A stretch of 64,000 bases of DNA from Kordiimonas laminariae (GTDB lineage: Bacteria; Pseudomonadota; Alphaproteobacteria; Sphingomonadales; Kordiimonadaceae). The notes beneath the pieces were generated by a model. It had not been told where the DNA came from. It was given only the letters and a program-made list of their open reading frames with translations, and ran no database searches. Shown piece after piece: positions 34,468 to 46,282 of this stretch (positions are counted from its first letter, which is position 1; the number at the start of each line of letters is the position of its first letter). The DNA is taken from positions 310,001 to 374,000 of the forward strand of contig NZ_JAKQZA010000003.1 in the NCBI RefSeq assembly GCF_023008165.1, in the 5' to 3' direction. A program made the position numbers and the translations under genes.

Positions 34468-35166
34468 TTAGCCAAACTGATAATTGAATAGACTACCACC
34501 ATCTTGCTTAAGCCATTTACGCTGTTTGTCAAAATCAGGCATACAGCGGGCTACATGTGCCCAAAACCGCTCAGAATGATTCATTTCCAGCAAATGCGAC
34601 ACTTCATGGGCGGCCACATAATCAAGGACTGCAGGTGGTGCCAACACCAGTCTCCAATTGAAGCGCAAGGTACCACTGGAAGAACAACTTCCCCAACGGC
34701 TTTTCATATCCCCAATACTAATGCGTCCATAAGAAACCTCTAGCTGGTTAGCATACCGTCTACAGGCGACCTCCAGTTTTTCTTTAGCTTGGGCACGAAA
34801 CCATTTCTCCAGCCGTCCGGCAGCCATATCGAACGGGCCACCCACCTGAAGTTCTTCATTCAGGCATTCAACAGAACGAGGTGCGATACCGGTAAAAACA
34901 AGCTTTCTTTTCTCGCCTAGATAAGGAAGTATCATTCCATCATTGATTGGTTCAAGTGAGAGCTTTGCGCGCTCATTCGCTATCCAATCCATATGGGCTG
35001 TCAGAAACTGGTTTACTGCCTTTTCACTAATTCGTTTCGGTGTAGTAACTTTAATATCACCGCTGGTTCGGTCCACTCTTAAGGTCATGCGTTTGGCTTG
35101 GGCATTCCGCCGCACTTTTAGGGGAATATCTTCACTACCAATCCGCAGATAACGTGCTTCGGTCAA
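34468..35166 (-). CDS. YgjP-like (DUF45) zinc metallopeptidase
   Basis: 232 residues. C-terminal catalytic motif VLDYVAAHEVSHLLEMNHSERFW (His-Glu-x-x-His, with the third ligand His downstream) preceded by MKSRWGSCSSSGTLRFNWRLVLAP, the hallmark of the YgjP/DUF45 family. It has no signal peptide, so is probably cytoplasmic. Ends convergently 12 bases from the preceding plus-strand gene; nine bases downstream of the YcgN-like gene on the same strand. Confidence 0.88.
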   Translation of the reverse strand: MTEARYLRIGSEDIPLKVRRNAQAKRMTLRVDRTSGDIKVTTPKRISEKAVNQFLTAHMDWIANERAKLSLEPINDGMILPYLGEKRKLVFTGIAPRSVECLNEELQVGGPFDMAAGRLEKWFRAQAKEKLEVACRRYANQLEVSYGRISIGDMKSRWGSCSSSGTLRFNWRLVLAPPAVLDYVAAHEVSHLLEMNHSERFWAHVARCMPDFDKQRKWLKQDGGSLFNYQFG

Positions 35167-35175
35167 ACCATCACC

Positions 35176-35604
35176 CTAAGCTGGCCATTCAACAAGATGA
35201 TCTTCAAAATCACCAGCTTCGCGCTCATCCACCGCTTTCCCGCGTACGGATTGTCCGGCTTTATGAACACTTTCCCTATCTCCGCTCACAAGCGGGTGCC
35301 ATTCATAGAGGTCTTTCCCTTCATACAGCAGGCGATATGCGCAGGTACTTGGCATCCAAGGTAGTGTAGCCAGCAAATCTGGCGACATAACAACACAATT
35401 ACCCACATAACGCTGACGAGTGAGGTATTTTCCGCAAGTAATTTTTACGGGATCAAGAAAACGACACGCTACATCTGTATGATGAATTTCGCCTGTATCT
35501 TCATCTTCGAGTTTGTGGAGGCAACACTTACCACACCCATCACAAAGCGATTCCCATTCATCACGAGACATTTCAGACAGAGCTTTTTCTTTCCAGAATG
35601 ACAT
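35176..35604 (-). CDS. YcgN-family cysteine-cluster protein (UPF0260)
   Basis: 142 residues. Dense conserved Cys pattern: LCDGCGKCCLHKLEDEDTGE, ACRFLDP, ITCGKYLTRQ, GNCVVMSP, and CAYRLLYEGKDLYEWHPL. This resembles a putative zinc or iron-chelating family of unknown function. Two bases separate its start from the SCO stop, so the SCO, YcgN and YgjP genes form an apparent operon on the minus strand. Confidence 0.9.
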   Translation of the reverse strand: MSFWKEKALSEMSRDEWESLCDGCGKCCLHKLEDEDTGEIHHTDVACRFLDPVKITCGKYLTRQRYVGNCVVMSPDLLATLPWMPSTCAYRLLYEGKDLYEWHPLVSGDRESVHKAGQSVRGKAVDEREAGDFEDHLVEWPA

Positions 35605-35606
35605 GA

Positions 35607-36194
35607 TTATTTCTTCTCAAGCACCGGCTTAAAAGTATTCGCAATATCCTGTGGTTTATCCTTGCTGGAGAACAGACGGTTATATTTACCGTCTTTGTCC
35701 ATTACGAAAATATAGCTCTGATGGTCCATCAAATAGCCATCATACCCTTCCTGTTCTCGCTTCGCGTAATATACCCGGTATTGCTTTGCAACATCGGCAA
35801 TTTCCTGAACAGAGCCTGTGAAAGCGATCAAATTCGGGTGATAATCCAGAACATAATCCGCCAACTCTTCAACGGAATCCCTCTCCGGATCTACTGAAAT
35901 AAATACCGGCTGAATAGGACTGGTATCATATCCTTCTTCCTCAAGGATATTCAGAGCAGTCGTTAGTTTATGGAGCTCTATCCGGCATACATCTGGACAA
36001 TAACTATATCCAAAATAAATAAGCTGATACTTGCCGTGAAAGCTTTTACTAGAGATTTTTTCGCCTGTATGGGCCGTCAGTACAAACGGACCACCTGGAC
36101 CTGAGGTCTTGTTTCCGCCACTATTAAAACTTACATAAGCCACAACCGCAGCTATAGCTACCGCGATCCATGCAACGAGCCTGATTGCTTTCAT
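35607..36194 (-). CDS. SCO1/SenC/PrrC-family copper chaperone
   Basis: 195 residues from ATG 36194 (MKAIRLVAWIAVAIAAVVAY), a membrane anchor at the N-terminus. Thioredoxin-like fold with the CxxxC copper site in FGYSYCPDVCRIEL and the distal His in LMDHQSYIFVMDKDG. It delivers copper to cytochrome oxidase CuA or acts as a redox signal protein. In Rhodobacter, prrC/senC sits between the kinase and regulator genes of PrrBA/RegBA; here SCO is about 1.7 kb from regB, divergently placed. Confidence 0.92.
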   Translation of the reverse strand: MKAIRLVAWIAVAIAAVVAYVSFNSGGNKTSGPGGPFVLTAHTGEKISSKSFHGKYQLIYFGYSYCPDVCRIELHKLTTALNILEEEGYDTSPIQPVFISVDPERDSVEELADYVLDYHPNLIAFTGSVQEIADVAKQYRVYYAKREQEGYDGYLMDHQSYIFVMDKDGKYNRLFSSKDKPQDIANTFKPVLEKK

Positions 36195-36339
36195 GTTAAA
36201 TCTCCACTCTGAAAGCCACTGGAACATCTGGGCTTTAATACTTGTGATTCTCGCACGGTTATAGAAATATAGGCGATGTTTGTCACGTTGCCATTAAATT
36301 TGCAGCAATCTATGACGCCTTGTTGATGATGGAGTACCT

Positions 36340-36903
36340 ATGAAAAAGCAGTTTATTTTAATATTAGCCATCTTATTTTTAGGGCTGTCATCTATATCCC
36401 TTCCGGCAATAGCAACACCACAGTTTGAATTGTTACGTGCTGTTGAAAGAGGCGACATTGAAGAAGTTAAAAGCCTGCTTAAAAAAGGTGTATCCCCCAA
36501 TACAAGAAAACGGTCAGATGGCATTCCTGCTATGTTGATCATCGCTGACAAGCGTAATCTTGCCATGATGAAGATGTTTCTGGAAGCTGGTGCAAACCCA
36601 AATATTTCTGATCGTACGCGGGGCGTAACACCACTGATGAAACGCGCATCAGTAGGCGACAATGAAATGGTAAAATTGCTACTTGCCTTCAAGGCAGACC
36701 CGAATCGTGCTGATATCGGTCAGGAAACAGCTCTTATGAAAGCAGTACGAGCACGGAAATCAAAAACCGTGCAGTTGTTACTTGAAGCTGGCGCTGATCC
36801 GAACGTACAGGACCTTACAGGTAAAACAGCTCTTGAGTATGCCAAAATTTCTCGCAATCGTCGGATGGTAAAATTATTACAAGATGCGGGGGCTACCTAT
36901 TAA
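36340..36903 (+). CDS. Exported ankyrin-repeat protein
   Basis: 187 residues. Signal peptide MKKQFILILAILFLGLSSISLPAIA. About four ankyrin repeats follow: FELLRAVERGDIEEVKSLLK, IPAMLIIADKRNLAMMKMFL, TPLMKRASVGDNEMVKLLLA and TALMKAVRARKSKTVQLLLE, ending with TALEYAKISRNRRMVKLLQ. A protein-protein interaction module in the periplasm. Its 3' end overlaps the next gene by 20 bases, so the two are coupled. Confidence 0.87.
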   Translation: MKKQFILILAILFLGLSSISLPAIATPQFELLRAVERGDIEEVKSLLKKGVSPNTRKRSDGIPAMLIIADKRNLAMMKMFLEAGANPNISDRTRGVTPLMKRASVGDNEMVKLLLAFKADPNRADIGQETALMKAVRARKSKTVQLLLEAGADPNVQDLTGKTALEYAKISRNRRMVKLLQDAGATY

Positions 36904-37837
36904 TTTTGATTTAGGGATAGCTTCTCCAACAGCCACTGACCTGATAATTCGGGTCAGCATTATTTTACTGGCTCTTGCAGCAGACTTCATAGCTGGCCCC
37001 AAACTTCTTAAAATCTTGCCAAACATACAAACTATTGCATCCGCATTTGGCCTCAACCTCAAAAGCCGTTTGGATAAACCTTCAAGAAATCGTACCGAGC
37101 GCTTTTATCGGGGCGCTATCGTCGCTTTAGTGCTTTTACCTGTAGCCTACGGAACTGGCGTAATAGTAAACCAAATTGCCTTTATCAACACCATATCAGA
37201 TGCCTTAACATGCCTGATACTGACACCTCTCTTAGCCCAGCGCTCTGGCTGGAAAAACTTACAACAAGGAAAACAAAACCTTTCAAATTACAGTTCAAAC
37301 GCAGAACTCCTTAAACAGACAGTATTGAGTTTCAGTGGCCGCACTGTCCCACTTTCACTTACCTTTTTAATTGGCGGTTTTGCTCTATTGCTCCCGGCCG
37401 TTCTACTGATCGGACTATTATTCACTGCACCGCAAATTTCTGCAGATCATCCACAATCTCCATACAATTCAGGCGTCAGCCTTATTCATGAAATTGTGTT
37501 TCTTGTGCCTAGTTTAGTTGCCAGCATTTTTATTGCCACAGCCCTTATCTGCTTACCTTTCACTAAAATCAGTGCCGCTTTAACCCTCCTCAATCCTGCG
37601 ACAAAAGGCCTCCCTAGCACCTATTTTCCATTGAATATTGTCGCAACTGGGGTAGAAATTTGTTTCAGGATACAGGGAAGCAAATCTGTAGAATGGATAG
37701 GCCCAAAGGATGGCCGCGCAAGATTACAGGCAAATCATCTCCGTCAGGGGTGGTTATGTATTCTTGTCGCCAATGCAGTGTACCTCACGGTAGGTATACT
37801 GCTGTTTCTCTACCTTGCTTCCTTACTTGCGCAATAG
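36884..37837 (+). CDS. CobD/CbiB-like integral membrane protein
   Basis: 317 residues with several membrane segments. The resemblance to adenosylcobinamide-phosphate synthase is in pieces: ILLALAADFIAGP at the start, KSRLDKPSRNRTERFYRGAIVALVLL, and near the C-terminus VEWIGPKDGRARLQANHLRQGWL. No other cobalamin gene is nearby, and several stretches are divergent, so a moonlighting or lost catalytic role is plausible. It is immediately upstream of regB (12-base gap), an arrangement I recall from other alphaproteobacteria but cannot verify here. Confidence 0.65.
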   Translation: MRGLPINFDLGIASPTATDLIIRVSIILLALAADFIAGPKLLKILPNIQTIASAFGLNLKSRLDKPSRNRTERFYRGAIVALVLLPVAYGTGVIVNQIAFINTISDALTCLILTPLLAQRSGWKNLQQGKQNLSNYSSNAELLKQTVLSFSGRTVPLSLTFLIGGFALLLPAVLLIGLLFTAPQISADHPQSPYNSGVSLIHEIVFLVPSLVASIFIATALICLPFTKISAALTLLNPATKGLPSTYFPLNIVATGVEICFRIQGSKSVEWIGPKDGRARLQANHLRQGWLCILVANAVYLTVGILLFLYLASLLAQ

Positions 37838-37849
37838 AAAGAAGCGGGC

Positions 37850-39190
37850 ATGGCCTCCAGCGAGAACGAACAAAATATCATTCAGATGATGGACCCGGCC
37901 CTCCGCCAAGGTAATGGCGTGAGACTTGGCACCCTTATTATGATCCGCTGGATGGCAGTGGCGGGGCAAATGCTCTCTCTGCTTACTGTACACTATATTC
38001 TTGGCTTTGATATTCGCCCTGAGATGACATTCACCGTTGTGTTTATTTCAGGCATGATGAATCTTTGGTTCTCCCTGAGGGAAGATCTAAACACACGACT
38101 TTCAGACAAACAATCCACCTGGCATATGGTGTTTGATTTGCTTCACCTGTCTACTTTGCTGTTTTTAACTGGAGGTTTATCAAATCCCTTCATTGTATTG
38201 ATGCTTGCTCCTTCCAGCGTGTCAGCATCAATCCTTAGCCCCCGCAGTACCAAAGTACTCATCGCTATTTCAGTGGTTTTAGTAACCGCACTTGCCTATA
38301 CGCCTTTTCCTCTACCATGGGATGGCCCTGCGCCAAACGTAGATGATATTTTGAAAGCTGGTATTTGGATCAGCCTTTGTTTCACACTTGTTTTTCTGGC
38401 CATGTATATGTCGCGGGTCAGCAAGGAAGGTCAGGACCGGGCAAAGGCGCTTGCAGCAACTCAAGCTGCCCTGGAGCAAGAACAGCGCCTAGCAGCCCTC
38501 GGAACGCTGGCCGCTGCCGCAGCGCATGAATTGGGTACACCGCTTGGGACCATTCTACTTGTTGCCAAGGAACTCCAAAACCACTGCAAAGATCAAGATG
38601 AGCAAACCAAGCTTGATATCGAATTAATTATTGACCAAACCAGCCGCTGTCGTGAAATTCTGGCAGAAATCAGCCAAAAACGTAAAGCAGGTGATGCGGA
38701 ACATTTCACTTATCTGGGTATTGAAGCGATTCTAAGAGAAGCTGGGCACCCTCATGAAATGCGCGGTGTGAAAGTGAAATATAGTAGCGAAGGGCCAGAT
38801 AATCTGATCCTTAGGCGTACCCCGGAACAAATCCATGCTTTCCGCACCATCGTAGAAAATGCCACTGGCTTTGCAGAAAATGAAGTTCAGATACATGCCG
38901 AATGGGATGAAGAAAACCTGCAAATATATGTGGAAGATGATGGCCCTGGCTTTGATCCACAAATTGTGAAACGTCTCGGCGAACCTTATGTTACAACCAG
39001 ACAACCAACACCGGGCAAAGATGGTGGGTTAGGCTTGGGACTGTTTATATCTAAAACCTTATTAGAACGCACCGGCGCAAAAATGAGCTTTAAAGAAGCC
39101 TCTATTGGTGGTGCACGTGTTGAATTAAACTGGCCTCGCTCAGCCTTACAGGAAGAGCCTGATTTCTCAGATGAGGAGGAGTTAGCATGA
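37850..39190 (+). CDS. regB: RegB/PrrB/ActS-type redox-sensing histidine kinase
   Basis: 446 residues. About six membrane helices, with the quinone-site heptad GGLSNPF between helices; the H-box AAAAHELGTPLGTILL with phosphoacceptor His226; the redox-active cysteine Cys267 in TSRCREIL; and the ATPase N, G1 and G2 boxes ENATGFAEN, VEDDGPGFDP and GGLGLGLFIS. His226 and Cys267 are at nearly the positions known for Rhodobacter capsulatus RegB (225 and 265). It controls respiratory or redox genes in response to quinone state. Its stop overlaps the regA start by four bases. Confidence 0.94.
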   Translation: MASSENEQNIIQMMDPALRQGNGVRLGTLIMIRWMAVAGQMLSLLTVHYILGFDIRPEMTFTVVFISGMMNLWFSLREDLNTRLSDKQSTWHMVFDLLHLSTLLFLTGGLSNPFIVLMLAPSSVSASILSPRSTKVLIAISVVLVTALAYTPFPLPWDGPAPNVDDILKAGIWISLCFTLVFLAMYMSRVSKEGQDRAKALAATQAALEQEQRLAALGTLAAAAAHELGTPLGTILLVAKELQNHCKDQDEQTKLDIELIIDQTSRCREILAEISQKRKAGDAEHFTYLGIEAILREAGHPHEMRGVKVKYSSEGPDNLILRRTPEQIHAFRTIVENATGFAENEVQIHAEWDEENLQIYVEDDGPGFDPQIVKRLGEPYVTTRQPTPGKDGGLGLGLFISKTLLERTGAKMSFKEASIGGARVELNWPRSALQEEPDFSDEEELA

Positions 39191-39726
39191 CTCAAGAAAC
39201 ACCAGCAAAAACCCTTCTAATCGTAGAAGATGACAAAGCTTTCAGAAACCGCCTTGCGCTCAGCATGGAACGAAAAGGTTTCACAGTTTATGCAGCTGAA
39301 GGCATTGAAGAAGGCAGTATTCTGGCCGCTGAACATCGTCCTCAATATGCTGTCGTTGATATGCGCCTGGAAGATGGTAACGGACTTGATTTAGTACCTC
39401 AATTACGCCAAATCCGCCCCGATATCCGCGTGGTTATTTTGACAGGATACGGAAACATCGCCAGCGCTGTAGCAGCAGTTAAAGCCGGCGCTGTAGATTA
39501 TCTTGCAAAACCGGCAGACCCTGACCAGATCGAGAAAACACTCCTAACCCTCGAAGGGCATATGCCGCCACCGCCAGAAAACCCTATGTCTGCGGACCGT
39601 GTGAAATGGGAGCATATTCAGCGTGTTTATGAACTGTGTGATCGCAATGTTTCTGAGACCGCACGCAGGCTTAACATGCATCGCCGAACACTGCAGCGCA
39701 TTCTTGCAAAACGTTCCCCTCAATAA
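39187..39726 (+). CDS. regA: RegA/PrrA/ActR-type response regulator
   Basis: 179 residues. Receiver with acidic pair Asp15-Asp16, phosphoacceptor Asp58 (AVVDMRLEDGNG), Thr in VVILTGYG and Lys in DYLAKPAD. The C-terminal Fis-like HTH NVSETARRLNMHRRTLQRILAK is nearly the invariant helix of the RegA family. A proline-rich linker (MPPPPENPMS) joins the domains. Partner of the preceding kinase; global redox regulator of respiration genes. Confidence 0.95.
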   Translation: MTQETPAKTLLIVEDDKAFRNRLALSMERKGFTVYAAEGIEEGSILAAEHRPQYAVVDMRLEDGNGLDLVPQLRQIRPDIRVVILTGYGNIASAVAAVKAGAVDYLAKPADPDQIEKTLLTLEGHMPPPPENPMSADRVKWEHIQRVYELCDRNVSETARRLNMHRRTLQRILAKRSPQ

Positions 39727-39739
39727 CGTCCAATACCGA

Positions 39740-41086
39740 TTAATTGGAAATTGAAGGATCAACGGCTTCGCCTTGGAACATCGTGATTCCAAGGCGTTGG
39801 CCTAAGATAATATCTTCAGAAGAATGACACCCTTCCAAGATAATTCGGTTACTACCGATCTTTTCAATAATATTGATAATTCTATCTTCTTCTTTACGGT
39901 CCAGCCACGTTTCCACATTCGAAGCAGGGTTCGTCACTTTCAGAAAATCAGACTGTAGGTTACCTAAATTAAGCCAAGCTAAGGCACGAGGGTCTACCCC
40001 TGCAATACAGCTTTTAAATCCTAAGGTTTGTAGCTTTTCACGAGCCGCCAAATAGGCTGCGAAATTCGACGTTACATCAAGGCTGGAAAACTCTAAGACG
40101 ATATTACTGCGGATTTTTTTTCCTAAACCTTCTTCAAACTTATCAAACTCTCTGGCTAACACACCGGCAGCCGTTACTTTCAAGCTTGAAGCAAGAGAGT
40201 TTTCATTCTCCATATTAGGATCAGACGCCAAAACCCTACTCGCGATAAGGTCTTCAAGAAACCCCGATAGCCAAGGGTCAACTTCCGTAAGCTTACTTTT
40301 CAAAAAGGTATCAAAAACCACCTGCTGCGGCACCCAGCGGTGCACCATTACCATCTGAGGTGCCTGAATACCAAGTATAGCCATCACACATTGCCGCCTA
40401 AGCAATCCACCTACATCAGCGGACGTAATAGCCTTTGTAAGAGTTAATAACATCTCAGGGTCAAGCTTTTTGCTCTGCGGTTTTCTCGCAGGGCTTTCAA
40501 TCTTGCTCACCTTCATTTTTTGCGGCGGTTCAGATGGTAAAGGTGCCCCTGCATCACCTTGAGGATCAATCTTAATAAGTCCCGTATCCGGGTTAACATC
40601 AGGCTTTGCTTTAGATTTTTTTTTAGATTTAGAGGCGCCAACATTTCTGGATGCTGGTATCTTTTTCCCTTCCAGCACTGCTTGAGCCAACCTTGCTACA
40701 TATTTTGTGAAAACATCATATTCTGCTTCAAGATCAAACCATTCAACAAAAGCGTCACTTACACCTTGAATGGGATCAATCGCTCGTAAGGCACTAGCCT
40801 CTTTGAATTTTAAGCGGACCTGATTCAACATAGGGTCAATAACATCAACCCGTGCATCTTTAACGATCAGGACTAAATCATTATTTGGCAGCGAGAAACT
40901 CGCAGCGCCATAATCGGTTTTCAATGTTCTAAAGCTGGCGGCAGCGAACCGACGATAATGCTCTTCCTGCAAATGCTTTTCCAGCACTGAAAGCCTTATA
41001 TGCAAGGCCCTCCGGCCTTCTGTATGAAGCCTAAGCTGCTTGGTGTAATCAAGCATTTCATGTACGGCTTTAATATCTTTTGCCAT
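39740..41086 (-). CDS. Degenerate GGDEF/EAL-like protein (putative c-di-GMP pseudoenzyme)
   Basis: 448 residues, cytoplasmic. Residues about 20-100 (RLSVLEKHLQEEHYRRF, then SLPNNDLVLIVKDARVDVID) fit a nucleotide-cyclase-like fold without a GGDEF signature. A basic, Pro-rich linker follows (145-205). Residues about 205-440 follow the EAL barrel outline: SLKVTAAGVLAREFDKFEEG, IVLEFSSLDV, LQTLGFKSCIAGVDPRALAW, SDFLKV, RIILEGCHSSEDIILGQRLG and MFQGEAVD. The E-A-L motif, the DDFG metal site and the catalytic Lys environment are missing, so it is probably a binding or scaffold protein. The EAL reading is inference from pattern. Confidence 0.6.
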   Translation of the reverse strand: MAKDIKAVHEMLDYTKQLRLHTEGRRALHIRLSVLEKHLQEEHYRRFAAASFRTLKTDYGAASFSLPNNDLVLIVKDARVDVIDPMLNQVRLKFKEASALRAIDPIQGVSDAFVEWFDLEAEYDVFTKYVARLAQAVLEGKKIPASRNVGASKSKKKSKAKPDVNPDTGLIKIDPQGDAGAPLPSEPPQKMKVSKIESPARKPQSKKLDPEMLLTLTKAITSADVGGLLRRQCVMAILGIQAPQMVMVHRWVPQQVVFDTFLKSKLTEVDPWLSGFLEDLIASRVLASDPNMENENSLASSLKVTAAGVLAREFDKFEEGLGKKIRSNIVLEFSSLDVTSNFAAYLAAREKLQTLGFKSCIAGVDPRALAWLNLGNLQSDFLKVTNPASNVETWLDRKEEDRIINIIEKIGSNRIILEGCHSSEDIILGQRLGITMFQGEAVDPSISN

Positions 41087-41167
41087 ATAACCTCAAAACT
41101 CAGTCACGTGTTAAATCGCAATAAAACCAGTCCCCACTCATAGTTTATCAGAATACGATATGTTTAA

Positions 41168-41854
41168 TTATCTACCAAATTTTTTCACCTGATGAAGCCA
41201 CCAAGCTGTTTCATTAATTGAGTAAACTGGTCGGTAATGCAAAATCTTGCTGTCGGGCAATACAGCATCCACCTGATTATCTAAAACCAGATATTCACCT
41301 TCATAATCTATGGCAAGAATGGCGTGCGCTACCCGAAGGTTTTGGTCCTGCAATATCACCAGCCGCATGGATTCTGGGGCAACCCCTAAGCGCTTCAGCG
41401 TTACATATTTGCTAATCGCATAATCTTCACAATCACCATCTTTCAGGAAAAACTCATCTGGTGTAGCCCAGTAATCAGGAAGCCCCCAGTTAACTGGGTC
41501 TACGATGTATGGATAACGGTTCATATATTGATTAACCGCTTTAATCATCTCAAGAGGTTCAGCTCCTTCTTGAGAAGCGATAAATTCTTCCCACGCTGCT
41601 TTACCACACCGCAAACGGTCTCTACCTCTGCAGTTTTGCTCTACTGTGCTTTCTTGCTTCGGCATTTCTTCAGTCAAAGAAAGGTTATGCCGACGCCACA
41701 AATCAGTCCATTTATCAAAAGACTTCATGCTTTTGGAGCGTATTTCCCGGCTACCGAACAAGCCTGTGCGGGGCTGGGCATCTGCCGAAGAAACAAATGG
41801 CTCTACTACCAGAAAACCCAAAACAATACTTATTAAGCCTATAATTCGGAACAT
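41168..41854 (-). CDS. LapG-like periplasmic transglutaminase-type cysteine protease (BTLCP)
   Basis: 228 residues. Signal peptide MFRIIGLISIVLGFLVVEPFVSSADA. The catalytic triad is Cys142 (KDGDCEDYAISKY), His177 (RVAHAILAID) and Asp192 (LVLDNQVD), as in the DUF920/LapG family. LapG cleaves large surface adhesins when the c-di-GMP receptor LapD releases it. Neither LapD nor an adhesin is in the window, but both flanking genes are c-di-GMP-type pseudoenzymes. Its upstream region is divergent with the HD-GYP-like gene. Confidence 0.86.
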   Translation of the reverse strand: MFRIIGLISIVLGFLVVEPFVSSADAQPRTGLFGSREIRSKSMKSFDKWTDLWRRHNLSLTEEMPKQESTVEQNCRGRDRLRCGKAAWEEFIASQEGAEPLEMIKAVNQYMNRYPYIVDPVNWGLPDYWATPDEFFLKDGDCEDYAISKYVTLKRLGVAPESMRLVILQDQNLRVAHAILAIDYEGEYLVLDNQVDAVLPDSKILHYRPVYSINETAWWLHQVKKFGR

Positions 41855-42027
41855 AAAAACTGGCTGGCCTCTATACCTGATCTCACATATTTTTTGTTCG
41901 AATTTAATTGAGCATCAAACAAATATGTACCAACATAACCACAAGCGAACAGAGAGCCAAGAGCTCTCTCATACTATCACTGAACAGTGACAATGTTACA
42001 GCACGAACGCATTAGTAAGGGGCCCCC

Positions 42028-44049
42028 ATGCAAACGGAAACGTCTTCAAACAAAAATATGATGGCCTACGCTGGTGCCTTGATGGGGCTTATCGCGCTTG
42101 GCCTATGGTTCATCACTCGATTTGCAGCCTCAGAAGCCGAGCAAGATCTCCAGAACTGGCAATCTCGTATCAATTTAATAGCGGATAGCAGAGCCGCAGA
42201 GGTTTCAACCTGGCTTAACCGACACCTTAAAGCCGTTGAAGAATTAGCAGCTGATGCCTCAGTGCAGCTATATGCAGCTCAAATGTCTTCACCTGAAGAT
42301 CAGGATGCCGTCGAAGCACAGCGCGGTTATATTTTCTCACTTATTTCAGCAGAGGCAGAACGCCACGGCTTCCATGAAAACAGAGCCATTGATGCGGTAG
42401 CAGCCAATGTAAACCGCCCTCGCCGTGCAGGTATTGCTGTTGTTTCAGATAAAGGACAGGCCTTTGTTATGACAACAGGCATGCCGCTTCTACGACCAGA
42501 GGAAATTCCTCTGGCAAACACGCAGTCTTTTATCGCCCTAGGCCCACAACTTGGCGATAAAACCCCACTCGTAATTTTTGGTGCAAAAGCGATCTCTGGT
42601 ACCGGCACAGTTTGGGTAATTGGCGCACGCCCACTGGATGGTGACTTCCTTCAAACACTCGTGCAGCCGGGTGACGATACCCAAACTTCTGAAACATATT
42701 TGGTAAAGCCCGAAAGCGATGATTTAGTAAGGGTTATCACACCGCTTGCTCAAGGTGGCAGGCTAGGCGCGACCACCGTGGATGCAGCCGCTTCTTTTGC
42801 GGTGAAACAACCGGGTGGTTTCAGCACACAAATGAATTACGCAAACACTGAAGTTCTTGTTATGGGCAAGGAACTGTCAGCCCCGGTTCCGTGGATACTG
42901 GTTCGCACCATTAAAACAAGTGAAGCAGTCGCCGCTATTACGGAACGCCGCAATAGTCTCATTGTTACACTTTCTCTAGCAGGTCTTTTTGTACTCGCAG
43001 CCCTTATTCTGGTGTGGCGTCACGGTATTTCCCGCAAACTGGAAAATTCCTACCACGAACAAGCCATGCTTTCGGAGAAGAACGAGTCTCTAAGCGAGTT
43101 CCTGCAATCAGTAACGGATAGCCAACCCGCTGCCGTAGCTGCTGTTGACAACGATATGACTGTGCATTTTTCCAATACACAAATGTCAGATATTACAGAG
43201 ATCAATAAAGATGATCTTATTGGCAGAAGGCTTGATACTGCCTTCCGTAGTTCCCTTGCAGAGAAAATGCGTTCTCGCATTGCTGCAGCCACTTCCGGGC
43301 ACCCAGACAACCTCAATGTTACACATAGTAACCGCACCTTCAGAATGGATACCATTCCTCTAAAAGCTGGTGGTGATTACCCCGCCACTGCGCTAATGGT
43401 GATGCGGGATATTTCTGACCTTGTTGAAGCACAGGCGCAATCGGAAGAACTATTCAAAAAACTGGTCTCAACACTTACGCAAATTATTGATGCCCGTGAC
43501 CCATGGAGCAAACACCATTCAGAGCGTGTAGCAGATGTTAGTGTTACTATAGCTCAGGAACTGGAATGGGACGAAGACGGTAAAGAATGTGTCAATATCG
43601 CAGCCCAACTTGTAAATGTCGGTAAGATATTTGTCCCAATTGAAATCCTTACCAAACAAACACCGCTTACCGATGAAGAACTCTCTCTGGTACGTGATAG
43701 TATGCAGCAAAGCGCTTCACTTGTTGCAGGGCTGGATTTCAAAGGACCAGTAGCCGCAATTCTCGACCAGATCAGAGAAAACTGGGATGGCAGCGGCGAA
43801 CACGGTAAAGCTGGTGAAGATATCGAAGCCGGAGCCCGTGTGCTCGCAGTTGCTAACGCTTTCGTGGGTATGGTTTCAGCTCGCGCGCACCGAAATGGGC
43901 TGAGCTTTGACAAAGCCGCTGATATTCTTCATCAGGAATGCGGTACGAAATTTGAACGCCGGATTGTAGCAGCTCTACAAAATATTCTGGAAAACAAAGG
44001 CGGCAGGGATCGCTGGAGTCACTATATGGAAAAACCTGAAGAGGCTTAA
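42028..44049 (+). CDS. Membrane sensor with PAS and degenerate HD-GYP domain
   Basis: 673 residues. A periplasmic sensor region (30-310) lies between two membrane helices (12-30 and 310-330), then a PAS domain (about 355-465) and an HD-GYP-like domain (470-660). The HD dyad is replaced: AAQLVNVGKIFVP stands where LLHDIGK is expected (Val529, Asn530). The GYP motif HHERxDGxGYP is IRENWDGSGEH, and the H-P before it is lost. The fold frame HSERVADVSVTIAQEL...GTKFERRIVAAL is intact. It is therefore likely to be a non-catalytic signalling protein. Confidence 0.8.
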   Translation: MQTETSSNKNMMAYAGALMGLIALGLWFITRFAASEAEQDLQNWQSRINLIADSRAAEVSTWLNRHLKAVEELAADASVQLYAAQMSSPEDQDAVEAQRGYIFSLISAEAERHGFHENRAIDAVAANVNRPRRAGIAVVSDKGQAFVMTTGMPLLRPEEIPLANTQSFIALGPQLGDKTPLVIFGAKAISGTGTVWVIGARPLDGDFLQTLVQPGDDTQTSETYLVKPESDDLVRVITPLAQGGRLGATTVDAAASFAVKQPGGFSTQMNYANTEVLVMGKELSAPVPWILVRTIKTSEAVAAITERRNSLIVTLSLAGLFVLAALILVWRHGISRKLENSYHEQAMLSEKNESLSEFLQSVTDSQPAAVAAVDNDMTVHFSNTQMSDITEINKDDLIGRRLDTAFRSSLAEKMRSRIAAATSGHPDNLNVTHSNRTFRMDTIPLKAGGDYPATALMVMRDISDLVEAQAQSEELFKKLVSTLTQIIDARDPWSKHHSERVADVSVTIAQELEWDEDGKECVNIAAQLVNVGKIFVPIEILTKQTPLTDEELSLVRDSMQQSASLVAGLDFKGPVAAILDQIRENWDGSGEHGKAGEDIEAGARVLAVANAFVGMVSARAHRNGLSFDKAADILHQECGTKFERRIVAALQNILENKGGRDRWSHYMEKPEEA

Positions 44050-44477
44050 CCAACAGCCTTTTCAAAAAGTCTCATTGCTGCCGTTCGTGCCATTTGCTGA
44101 ATAAGTTTTTTGGCGCGAGCGGCATTTACTTTTCTAGAGGCTGCTTCACGAATTACCTCCCCGCCATAAGCATCTGCAATGATAATACCTGTTATATCTG
44201 GAAGGCTGGTACTTTCATTAAGCACATTAATAGGAAAATGTTGATCAACAGCGAAATAAAACTCTTCACAATAGTCTAGATATTCCTGCCATTTAGTATC
44301 CGAACGGAAATCACTTAGACCTGATTTCACCTCAACAACCACAAGACCGCCTGGTTTGTTCAGCCCCAAAATATCAACCCGGCGATTATTCTTTAGCACC
44401 ACTTCCCGCACAGGAGCATAACCAAGTTCCACCAGCAATCTTTCAGCGCCGAGCGTGATGTTAACCGTTTCAGTCAT
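44046..44477 (-). CDS. mmcB: MmcB-family DNA repair protein
   Basis: 143 residues. A restriction-endonuclease-like fold: RVDILGLNKPGGLVVVEVKSGLSDFRSD holds the D-x(n)-E-x-K catalytic pattern, followed by KWQEYLDYCEEFYFAV. MmcB in Caulobacter acts with the ImuAB/DnaE2 mutasome in damage tolerance. Convergent with the HD-GYP-like gene (four-base overlap), six bases after the Hpt gene on the same strand, so Hpt-MmcB may be one transcript. Confidence 0.85.
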   Translation of the reverse strand: MTETVNITLGAERLLVELGYAPVREVVLKNNRRVDILGLNKPGGLVVVEVKSGLSDFRSDTKWQEYLDYCEEFYFAVDQHFPINVLNESTSLPDITGIIIADAYGGEVIREAASRKVNAARAKKLIQQMARTAAMRLFEKAVG

Positions 44478-44483
44478 GAAAAA

Positions 44484-44897
44484 TCAGGTACTGGCCTCTT
44501 CATCAATGATATTTTCAAGCCGCTGTAGAATAGCTTCGCCTTGGGCACCACCACTACCTTTGATTTTGTGCTGCAAGACCACTTCAAAGGTACGAACATG
44601 CCCTTCCAGCACCCGCTTGCTTGCTTGCTGGTCATCAGGCATCTGTTTCAGATATTTACAAAGGGATGCGCCAACGTTTGTAAGTAAGTTGAACTCGAAG
44701 CTACTACCCATCCCCTTGATATTATGAGTTAAATCATAAACCTGCTGGACACTCGCTTCCTTAGGTCCCGCTTTGTCCGGCATACCATCCAAAATCCCGC
44801 GCATGTCTTTCACGGCTGTGTCTGTCCACTCAAGAAATTGAGCTACCAGCTCGTCATCTTCCGCATATGAATAATCAGTATCTACAACTTCAGTCAT
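44484..44897 (-). CDS. Stand-alone Hpt phosphotransfer protein
   Basis: 137 residues, all-helical. The Hpt signature is VYDLTHNIKGMGSSFEFNLL with phosphoacceptor His58, and the C-terminal helices (VRTFEVVLQHKIKGSGG) complete the bundle. It would relay phosphate between a hybrid kinase and a receiver; no hybrid kinase is in the window. Upstream of mmcB. Confidence 0.83.
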   Translation of the reverse strand: MTEVVDTDYSYAEDDELVAQFLEWTDTAVKDMRGILDGMPDKAGPKEASVQQVYDLTHNIKGMGSSFEFNLLTNVGASLCKYLKQMPDDQQASKRVLEGHVRTFEVVLQHKIKGSGGAQGEAILQRLENIIDEEAST

Positions 44898-45069
44898 TTG
44901 TTCTCGATTTACCCCAATCCACAGTATGACAACTATTTTAGCATAATATGCAACAAAAACAGTTATTTATTTGTTTACAAGCTAGAGAGGCACGAGTTTT
45001 CCTTGCAATCCGCCCAGCAATTTCGATAAATCAGATCAAATATATATATTCGGGACAAAGGAGCCTAAA

Positions 45070-45276
45070 TTGAGCCCACAGGAAATCGCTAAACTTGAGA
45101 CATATCTTCAAGACAAGTTTGATAACAGCAACATCAAGCTTATGCAGCGCCCAAAAGCTAAAGATTCAGTTGAGATGATGATCGGCGATGAATTTATCGG
45201 TGTTGCTTACCGCGATGAAGATGAAGGTGAAGTTTCCTACTCCCTCAGCATCTGCATCCTGGAAGAAGATCTTTAA
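45070..45276 (+). CDS. DUF3126 family protein
   Basis: 68 residues from TTG 45070, chosen because AAGGAG lies at proper distance just upstream. The product (SPQEIAKLETYLQDKFDN, LMQRPKAKDSVEMMIGDEF, VSYSLSICILEEDL) matches a short protein family largely restricted to alphaproteobacteria whose function is unknown. It is monocistronic with its own terminator. Confidence 0.88.
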   Translation: MSPQEIAKLETYLQDKFDNSNIKLMQRPKAKDSVEMMIGDEFIGVAYRDEDEGEVSYSLSICILEEDL

Positions 45277-45301
45277 GCTTTTAGAGCTTATATTCTTTGA
45301 G

Positions 45302-45326
45302 AAGCCGGCTTTTCAGTCGGCTTTTT
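45302..45326 (+). terminator. Intrinsic terminator after the DUF3126 gene
   Basis: AAGCCGGCT-TTTC-AGTCGGCTT, a nine-pair stem (one G-T) with a four-base loop and five T residues, 25 bases after the stop. Confidence 0.85.
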
Positions 45327-45392
45327 ATTTGCCTTATGATCATCAGCTTAGCATTATGCAGTTTCATTAAACTATAAATCTGTGAGGTAACC

Positions 45393-45617
45393 ATGCTGTA
45401 TCTTGTTGCTCTTCTTCTGCCACCGCTGGCCATTCTTTTGTGCGGCAAACCCTTTCAGGCTGTTATCAGTGGTGCATTCTGGATCGCCTCTATTGTTCTT
45501 ACCCTCTTTTTCGGCGCAGGCTTTGTGCTTTGGCTTATTCTTGCCATTCACGCAATTATGGTCGTGCGTGACAGAAACACCCGCAAAATGATGGAAGAAT
45601 TTGCAGACCGCTCCTAA
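45393..45617 (+). CDS. YqaE/Pmp3-family small membrane protein
   Basis: 74 residues. Two membrane helices (LYLVALLLPPLAILLCGKPF and ASIVLTLFFGAGFVLWLILAIHAI) separated by a short loop, then a basic tail; the PPLAILLCGKPF part fits the Pmp3/UPF0057 family, stress-induced proteins that affect membrane potential. A GAGG ribosome site precedes ATG 45393. Confidence 0.82.
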   Translation: MLYLVALLLPPLAILLCGKPFQAVISGAFWIASIVLTLFFGAGFVLWLILAIHAIMVVRDRNTRKMMEEFADRS

Positions 45618-45688
45618 AAAGTTTCAGTATTGATACTTGTCTAAAAACACCATAAAGTGAAACATATTCACTTTATGGATCGCCTTTT

Positions 45689-46282
45689 ATGCCTGAGCAC
45701 ATTCGTTTTCTAAAACATAATGAGCATCATCTTATCGGGAAGATTATCGCCGATGGGTTTGCCGATGATCCGGTAAACTTGTGGGCTTTTAGAAATACCG
45801 GTGCAATGAAGCCAGTGTTCACAACTATGGCAAGCCACCTCTATCTATCAGCCGGGTTTGGTTTGGTGAATAACGAAGAAAATGCCGGTGCTCTATGGCT
45901 ACCGCCGGGCGTGCCCAAACAGTTCAGTTTATTGGCCGATATTAAAATGGGTGCATCCATTTTGAAGCACGGCGATCTAAAAGCAGTCCAAAACTCTCTC
46001 CAGATAGACGCATACCTCAAAAAGAAAAAACCAAAAGAACCGCACTACTATCTGTTTGCTATCTCTGTGCATCCAAGCCTGCAGGGAAAAGGTATTGGCA
46101 GCCAATTGATGAAAGAAGCACTCAAACAAGTGGATGAAACACGTGCCCCCGCATATTTGGAAAGCTCCAAACCTGAAAATGTGCCTTTCTATAAAAAACA
46201 CGGCTTTGAAATAGTGGAAGAGGTAGTGCCGGGTACTGACTGCCCGCCCATGTGGCTTATGTGGCGAGAACCACGCCTGTAA
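45689..46282 (+). CDS. GNAT family acetyltransferase
   Basis: 197 residues. GNAT core ISVHPSLQGKGIGSQLMKEALKQVDE with the acetyl-CoA loop, then AYLESSKPENVPFYKKHGFEIVEE and PMWLMWREPRL. It resembles the group with an N-terminal NLWAFRN...AGALWLPPG segment seen in puromycin-acetyltransferase-like proteins of unknown substrate. It is unrelated at close range to the 3.4-5.8 kb array. Monocistronic. Confidence 0.85.
   Translation: MPEHIRFLKHNEHHLIGKIIADGFADDPVNLWAFRNTGAMKPVFTTMASHLYLSAGFGLVNNEENAGALWLPPGVPKQFSLLADIKMGASILKHGDLKAVQNSLQIDAYLKKKKPKEPHYYLFAISVHPSLQGKGIGSQLMKEALKQVDETRAPAYLESSKPENVPFYKKHGFEIVEEVVPGTDCPPMWLMWREPRL

Follow-up and report, generated by a model that had tools for sequence, protein, structure and literature searches.

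What does the gene cluster at 39740-44897 of a 64,000-nucleotide stretch of the Kordiimonas laminariae genome (contig NZ_JAKQZA010000003.1, positions 310,001 to 374,000; the whole stretch is here called the window) control, and how many of its genes act together? In coordinate order, the cluster of this 3.65-Mb genome encodes a pseudo-GGDEF/EAL protein (-), a LapG-type protease (-), a transmembrane sensor, hereafter the receptor (+), an MmcB-like protein (-) and an Hpt protein (-). A sequence-only reading had joined four of them into one signalling unit resembling a LapD/LapG adhesin switch rebuilt from different proteins. Family matches and structure models located the degenerate GGDEF/EAL-like protein, the LapG-type protease, the transmembrane degenerate HD-GYP sensor and the Hpt protein where that reading had placed them, together with the MmcB-like gene (44046-44477) between the receptor and Hpt genes, which it had not mentioned. 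The finding is real and conserved; at its core stands a switch of a kind already known, here in a different lineage and setting. We consider it quite probable that this core consists of two genes, for a receptor and a protease, that work as a switch of the DvhD/DvhG kind; binding of cyclic diguanosine monophosphate (c-di-GMP), restraint of the protease and proteolysis are inferred by homology.

Receptor and protease compared with DvhD and DvhG

In Desulfovibrio vulgaris, the c-di-GMP receptor DvhD, of dCache-PAS-pseudo-HD-GYP architecture, controls the LapG-like protease DvhG and binds c-di-GMP without hydrolysing it, and the DvhD/DvhG pairing in sulfate reducers was recently shown to govern cell attachment (PMC13090378). 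An interface between DvhD and DvhG has also been modelled. The opinion that no system of this composition had been described was thus mistaken, since DvhD and its partner share both the receptor architecture and the LapG-like protease (PMC13090378).

The window receptor matched PAS_4 (E 6.7e-8) and HD_5 (E 9.1e-33) in Pfam, and consists of a transmembrane helix, a periplasmic dCache domain (~38-309), a second transmembrane helix, a PAS domain (~358-466) and a pseudo-HD-GYP domain (~462-660), the transmembrane segments having been read from the sequence. An AlphaFold2 model based on 57 aligned sequences, namely 56 of 65 relatives and the window protein (mean predicted local distance difference test score, pLDDT, 86.8; predicted template modelling score, pTM, 0.52), gave a long N-terminal helix followed by a dCache-like part in the periplasm, another long helix, and then PAS and HD-GYP; a further alignment took in 41 of 56 relatives. 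DvhD is the best PDB match of this receptor by both sequence and fold. In particular, the PAS/HD-GYP structure of DvhD (9rc0) came first by sequence (E 1.5e-30; family profile 1.2e-74), its HD-GYP structure (9rbz) gave E 7.1e-26 (family profile 1.9e-58), and weaker matches were obtained with V-cGAP3 (2.3e-14; profile 1.1e-40) and PmGH (3.5e-14; profile 3.2e-24). The top five Foldseek hits of the model were likewise DvhD PAS/HD-GYP and HD-GYP chains, with the DvhD periplasmic domain (9rc2) at rank 47, and VIA-align superposed the HD-GYP domain on that of DvhD with Z 26.9 (205 aligned residues, root-mean-square deviation (rmsd) 3.6, 28% identity), PA4781 following at Z 22.6.

Although the HD-GYP fold is common to the window receptor and to the phosphodiesterases PmGH, PA4781 and V-cGAP3, the HD motif is lost in the window family. 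The catalytic HD reads VN in the window receptor and M, V or L followed by N in 56 of the 57 aligned sensors (in the one exceptional row the second residue is X), whereas DvhD has SQ where the window family has VN or MN; judged from this alignment, the metal ligands of the HD-GYP domain are lost. R490, L547, R619 and R622 (K520, L577, R650 and R653 of DvhD) are invariant in all 57 sensors, the position of DvhD P567 is kept in 54, and that of Y523 holds Y, W or F in 54. Seven residues of the window receptor (R490, P537, L547, M615, R619, R622 and E637) are identical or similar to c-di-GMP contacts of DvhD, a pattern that also fits active HD-GYP domains. As the HD motif is lost while much of the nucleotide pocket is kept, the protein is most likely a c-di-GMP receptor rather than a phosphodiesterase, and the agreement of sequence, fold and lost metal ligands with DvhD suggests a pair of the DvhDG type. 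At one locus (L074:9477-13025, G033), a receptor-like frame of 1183 amino acids adjoins lapG, which may be a fusion or merely a long frame.

The protease is the sole PF06035 (BTLCP/LapG) match in the genome (E 5.5e-15), and its family profile matched the solved LapG structures 4fgo (2.5e-31) and 4u65 (2e-30). Cys142, His177 and Asp192, the catalytic triad of the family, are invariant in 18 aligned sequences (17 of 41 relatives and the window protein), as is the DGDCEDYAI stretch, and the N-terminus reads as signal-peptide-like. Because the protein scored 96 bits where the curated LapG equivalog requires 320, we name it no further than LapG-type. The nearest named proteases come from Kordiimonas and Kordiimonadaceae, and no relative was found in the viral contigs searched. 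In G024 (L026/L100, a 3.1-kb contig), two tandem LapG-like genes lie by the receptor gene and replace the pseudo-GGDEF/EAL gene.

Like DvhD/DvhG, therefore, the window combines a dCache-PAS-HD-GYP receptor that has lost its metal ligands with an adjacent BTLCP protease gene carrying Cys-His-Asp; unlike them, the two genes are divergent and 173 bp apart, lie outside any adhesin or type I secretion system (T1SS) operon and, in Kordiimonadales, stand beside a pseudo-GGDEF/EAL gene and Hpt. With LapD/LapG of Pseudomonas fluorescens the locus shares the logic of a LapG-type protease and a membrane c-di-GMP receptor, and the soluble neighbour has the GGDEF-EAL fold of the cytoplasmic part of LapD, whereas the window receptor is built of dCache and pseudo-HD-GYP and LapD of LapD/MoxY and GGDEF-EAL. 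The receptor's periplasmic part models as dCache and not as LapD/MoxY; LapD_MoxY_N (PF16448) had no match in the genome, a weak absence given that the control genomes gave none either. LapG and the sensor form a tight pair, and by homology to DvhD/DvhG the earlier idea of a membrane sensor holding a periplasmic protease is best read as a membrane c-di-GMP receptor that gates it, but the separate cytoplasmic reader that it included is not needed, because the receptor's own HD-GYP domain does the reading in the DvhD model.

Conservation and co-occurrence of the pair

Other members of the genus, the family and the order show the same gene arrangement, and the grouping therefore exceeds chance; the conserved linkage on which the sequence-only reading depended is present. 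Among the best 80 of 171 LapG loci, referred to here as named loci, the receptor gene lay within 2.5 kb of lapG in 72, with a pseudo-GGDEF/EAL gene near in 43 and hpt in 28, all of which are lower bounds on account of contig ends. Two of 40 fetched loci (L078 and L079) were second BTLCP copies with no receptor near, and one receptor neighbourhood comparison covered frames longer than 300 amino acids.

A second set comprised 59 related genomes, the window's own included and some of them incomplete; it overlaps with the first set, several named loci (e.g., L098 and L056) coming from these genomes, and the two are thus not independent. Protease matches were found in 45 of the 59, matches to the receptor dCache domain in 42 and the pseudo-GGDEF/EAL protein in 46. 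The co-occurrence of protease and receptor was one-sided, with both in 42 genomes, LapG alone in three, the receptor alone in none and neither in 14. LapG and the pseudo-GGDEF/EAL protein were distributed differently: both occurred in 39 genomes, LapG only in six, the pseudo-GGDEF/EAL protein only in seven and neither in seven. The latter protein was counted down to 1.1e-39, three matches being dropped as generic EAL (G014, 7.2e-6; G032, 8.3e-4; G052, 3.0e-4), which gave 46 instead of 49. At L073 (G046) and L076 (G042), LapG has its catalytic residues and the receptor was found neither at the conserved place nor elsewhere in the genome.

The neighbourhoods of the seven genomes with a pseudo-GGDEF/EAL gene and no LapG are informative in this respect. 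Six of them (G023, G036, G039, G045, G050 and G056) keep the gene in a SenC-ankyrin block. ActSR accompanies it in five, and in four MmcB or Hpt was recognised at the other end (in one case through a weak Hpt match); these blocks are largely kept but contain neither LapG nor the receptor. On the 12.5-kb contig of the seventh (G029), no other block gene was recognised. As both genes are jointly missing while the flanking block and the pseudo-GGDEF/EAL gene stay, the receptor/protease pair appears to have been lost or gained as one cassette, and the pseudo-GGDEF/EAL gene to belong to the background block.

The pair also reaches well beyond the Kordiimonadales block. A search of 289 class genomes with the receptor dCache domain, which scored at most eight candidates per genome and may thus have missed sensors, found matches at E <=0.001 in 48 genomes, and in 41 of these the E-value was under 1e-40. 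Of the best 30 receptor-selected class loci (window included), 26 carry lapG beside the receptor gene on the opposite strand, 25 of them head to head; at L235 the two genes stand tail to tail, and at L237 the protease is represented by weak matches divided between two frames. These data bear on the alternative that the neighbourhood reflects nothing but ancestral synteny, a conserved SenC-ActSR-MmcB-Hpt block whose genes do not cooperate. A dozen functionally unrelated genes in the same order would fit such an account, but the pair occurs without recognised block genes nearby in 16 of the 80 named loci and is jointly missing from blocks that are otherwise largely kept, which makes it highly unlikely.

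Several observations weigh against a DvhDG-type pair. The phosphate-contacting K582 and Y621 of DvhD have no equivalent in the window receptor, and the conserved R..R pair also occurs in active HD-GYP domains, as is partly visible in the V-cGAP3 and PmGH alignments, so that c-di-GMP binding by the receptor is putative. LapG stands without a receptor in G042, G046 and G057 (the last a distant BTLCP, still scored as LapG-positive), the Fisher p of 5e-11 for co-occurrence overstates the independence of what are related genomes, and for two of the 42 genomes counted with both genes the sensor evidence is a weak or partial match (1.4e-5 in G030, where a fragment lies at a contig end; 5.8e-20 in G033). 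In addition, LapG was not seen beside the receptor in four of the 30 class loci (L226, L238, L243 and L247), and no adhesin or T1SS gene is linked to the pair. For the periplasmic domain, a sequence profile of the receptor dCache retrieved no DvhD chain, the likeness being one of fold alone, and amino-acid chemoreceptor dCache domains match equally well (Z 17.2-17.5) as that of DvhD (Z 17.1, 230 aligned residues, rmsd 3.3, 10% identity).

Alternatively, the sensor may be ligand-gated and respond mainly to a small molecule bound by its periplasmic dCache domain, with c-di-GMP secondary or irrelevant. Its dCache fold does match ligand-bound amino-acid chemoreceptor domains as well as DvhD's, and whether the DvhD dCache binds a ligand is left open (PMC13090378). 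The invariant residues of the pseudo-HD-GYP pocket would then require another reason, however, and we regard a purely or mainly ligand-driven receptor as unlikely.

The pseudo-GGDEF/EAL protein, Hpt and the surrounding block

The protein encoded downstream of lapG has 448 amino acids, no transmembrane helix that we could see, and a Pfam EAL match that remains under the cut-off (E 0.0024), whereas 25 of 39 aligned family members (38 of 38 relatives and the window protein) match EAL at E <=0.01, the best at 1.2e-11. Its model (mean pLDDT 87.6, pTM 0.56) comprises a GGDEF-like domain (1-140), a disordered linker (150-194) and an EAL-like domain (205-448), and comes structurally closest to tandem GGDEF-EAL proteins, LapD among them; the best VIA match, 6pwk, gave Z 17.6 over 330 aligned residues, with an rmsd of 21.5 that reflects domain orientation. 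The GGDEF motif is absent. Of the EAL catalytic positions, which were placed by eye on the alignment, the window protein retains K383, along with a terminal QG, but has lost the EAL motif, the TE glutamate and the DD pair; the full residue set of a catalytic EAL phosphodiesterase (EAL, N, E, DD, K, E) is not present, and some relatives keep N or one D of the DD pair.

Do this protein, LapG, the sensor and Hpt nevertheless form one signalling complex, with the soluble protein feeding an extra cytoplasmic signal into the receptor? In favour of this, the pseudo-GGDEF/EAL gene follows lapG on its strand after 81 bp, its product shares the fold of the LapD GGDEF-EAL module (6pwk), the trio of pseudo-GGDEF/EAL, LapG and sensor is found together in 43 of the 80 named loci, and it persists where little or no flanking block was seen (L055, L056; L120, L121, L147, L157). 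On the other hand, the gene is present in seven of the 14 LapG-less genomes, staying in the SenC-ankyrin block in six of those seven, and is absent from six of the 45 with LapG. It was seen beside LapG in three of the 30 sensor-selected class loci (~3.8 kb each, window included), and in three genomes (G010, G016 and G015; L052, L053 and L059) it has been cut down to a 142-amino-acid frame holding the GGDEF-like domain only. K. gwangyangensis (L085) carries all four genes; at the K. aquimaris locus (L084), no pseudo-GGDEF/EAL gene was found next to LapG. A single complex of all four is accordingly improbable in our view.

The Hpt protein (Hpt domain match E 7.4e-7) carries a phosphorylatable-type His motif, HNIKGMGSSF, which is kept in 25 of 26 relatives, the frame at L059 being without that stretch; it is tied to the protease/receptor pair by position alone. 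The four-part unit is therefore not supported, as the pseudo-GGDEF/EAL gene is separable from the pair and Hpt is linked to the latter gene by position only. Most likely, neither the pseudo-GGDEF/EAL protein nor Hpt is the gate, and both are instead separate or auxiliary regulators in the cytoplasm that are encoded in the same block. The MmcB-like gene, recognised at 14 of 40 fetched loci, is probably a bystander. In the wider neighbourhood (34468-39726), genes for an M48-like metallopeptidase, a YcgN-like protein, SenC, an ankyrin-like protein, a membrane protein and ActS/ActR precede the cluster, an arrangement that recurs at many loci throughout the taxonomic order; the M48-like, YcgN-like and ankyrin-like labels come from reading the sequence.

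Table 1. Features of the receptor/protease locus and its surroundings, in window coordinates
Feature	Position	Strand	Basis or remark
Tandem pseudo-GGDEF/pseudo-EAL protein, soluble, 448 aa	39740-41086	-	Weak Pfam EAL match, predicted fold; conserved but non-obligate neighbour
LapG/DvhG-type BTLCP cysteine protease, 228 aa	41168-41854	-	PF06035, family profile
Divergent intergenic region lapG/receptor, 173 bp	41855-42027	.	Coordinates
DvhD-like receptor, 673 aa	42028-44049	+	PAS_4, HD_5, model, PDB matches
MmcB-like (DNA repair) gene between receptor and hpt	44046-44477	-	Family search
Stand-alone Hpt domain protein	44484-44897	-	Hpt match; conserved neighbour
Flanking block: SenC/SCO1 (-), ankyrin-like (+), membrane protein (+), ActS/RegB (+), ActR/RegA (+)	35607-39726		Context, outside the switch

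Possible output of the proposed switch

The Dvh adhesin operon holds adhesin and T1SS genes together, and here the RTX and LssB-type (T1SS) matches of the genome all fall outside the window span (C21:310001-374000); for this reason we class the locus as a receptor-protease pair variant and not as a Dvh operon. The LapA retention model NF033682, which may miss retention domains of the Dvh type, had no match in the K. laminariae genome and a single one, below the cut-off, in the 59 genomes. The genome has 94 RTX repeat matches. Thirteen RTX open frames were read by eye, of which one (L186) has its N-terminus cut by a contig end and the other 12 are without a LapA-like retention N-terminus. The tetrapeptide xAAG, of the LapG cleavage type, occurs in five of the 13 and never within the first 240 residues, a weak test. 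An adhesin as target, as the sequence-only reading had it, thus stays conjectural, the retention model being unmatched. Among LssB-like ABC genes, the top match (C21:491225-493261) scored 362.8 bits, below the cut-off of 693.1; it adjoins an HlyD-type gene and was rejected as a candidate, with no adhesin among the ten proteins scanned. In a near relative (G013), L202:3713-11680 encodes an RTX/cadherin protein of 2655 amino acids starting with DUF4347, the counterpart of which in the K. laminariae genome (L186:1-3576) is the frame cut by the contig end.

A polysaccharide target has also to be considered. HvyA of Caulobacter crescentus, another alphaproteobacterial periplasmic BTLCP, blocks capsulation in G1 cells, shares its capsule export locus with genes that include pssY and a polymerase gene, and is described as controlled by its abundance in the cell cycle (PMC4241560). 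The window protease could likewise be a restriction factor for capsule or exported polysaccharide, with the receptor switching capsulation through c-di-GMP, a serious rival that we hold to be possible, though clearly the less probable reading. Unlike hvyA, the protease gene adjoins a receptor gene, and none of the ten window proteins scanned (35607-46282) is the product of a polysaccharide gene, so that no capsule export locus was seen among them; moreover, HvyA is described as controlled by abundance (PMC4241560). Among the named loci, eight of the best 80 are receptor-less, and neighbours, one or few per locus, were scanned in seven of these. A bacterial sugar transferase gene lies beside the protease gene in three (L124, L136 and L142), together with an O-antigen ligase gene in L142, and these three proteases fall in a 34-row group (82/81) of mostly receptor-paired ones, which speaks for a capsule function, as does the lack of any LapA retention module over the cut-off in the 59 genomes. 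At the other four, the neighbour scanned encodes a NACHT/WD40 protein (L108), Tex (L130), a beta-propeller protein (L123) or a protein of no family (L114, where it was not the nearest one), which speaks against it. L153 has a gene layout similar to that of L124, L136 and L142. In the protease tree, which was built without HvyA and has weak deeper forks and a bootstrap that had not settled, L136, L142, L153 and L108 group together (99/95) and L124 lies elsewhere, all five being inside the 34-row group. With the cell-cycle control of HvyA in mind, the window was searched for the CtrA-like site TTAA-N7-TTAA and contained none against 1.69 expected by chance.

Taking the two-gene switch of the DvhD/DvhG kind as the preferred reading, we propose that c-di-GMP, when bound to the pseudo-HD-GYP domain of the receptor, would cause a conformational change that may travel by way of the PAS domain and the membrane helices to the periplasmic dCache domain, and that the dCache domain would then restrain the divergently encoded protease. 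A fall in c-di-GMP would free the protease to cut an envelope target and so alter the cell surface, with adhesin release and polysaccharide control as the candidate outputs. Turnover of c-di-GMP in this genome is likely, since other EAL-domain genes are present (eight matches, seven over the cut-off). A more elaborate three-part switch that differs from both Lap and Dvh, in which a DvhD-type receptor and LapG are tuned by a free-standing LapD-like GGDEF/EAL module and act on polysaccharide export instead of an adhesin, under an Hpt phosphorelay and beside ActSR redox control, appears quite unlikely to us.

A DvhDG-type, HD-GYP-based receptor beside a LapG-like protease is thus found in many Alphaproteobacteria (41 of 289 class genomes, sensor E <1e-40), although the class-level distribution in Fig. 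9b of PMC13090378 may already include them, and the data suggest that receptors with a dead HD-GYP domain take the part of LapD outside Desulfovibrio as well. Culturable Kordiimonas species could offer a way to the substrate, and, with LapG-like and HvyA-like proteases linked, what the alphaproteobacterial BTLCPs cut becomes testable.

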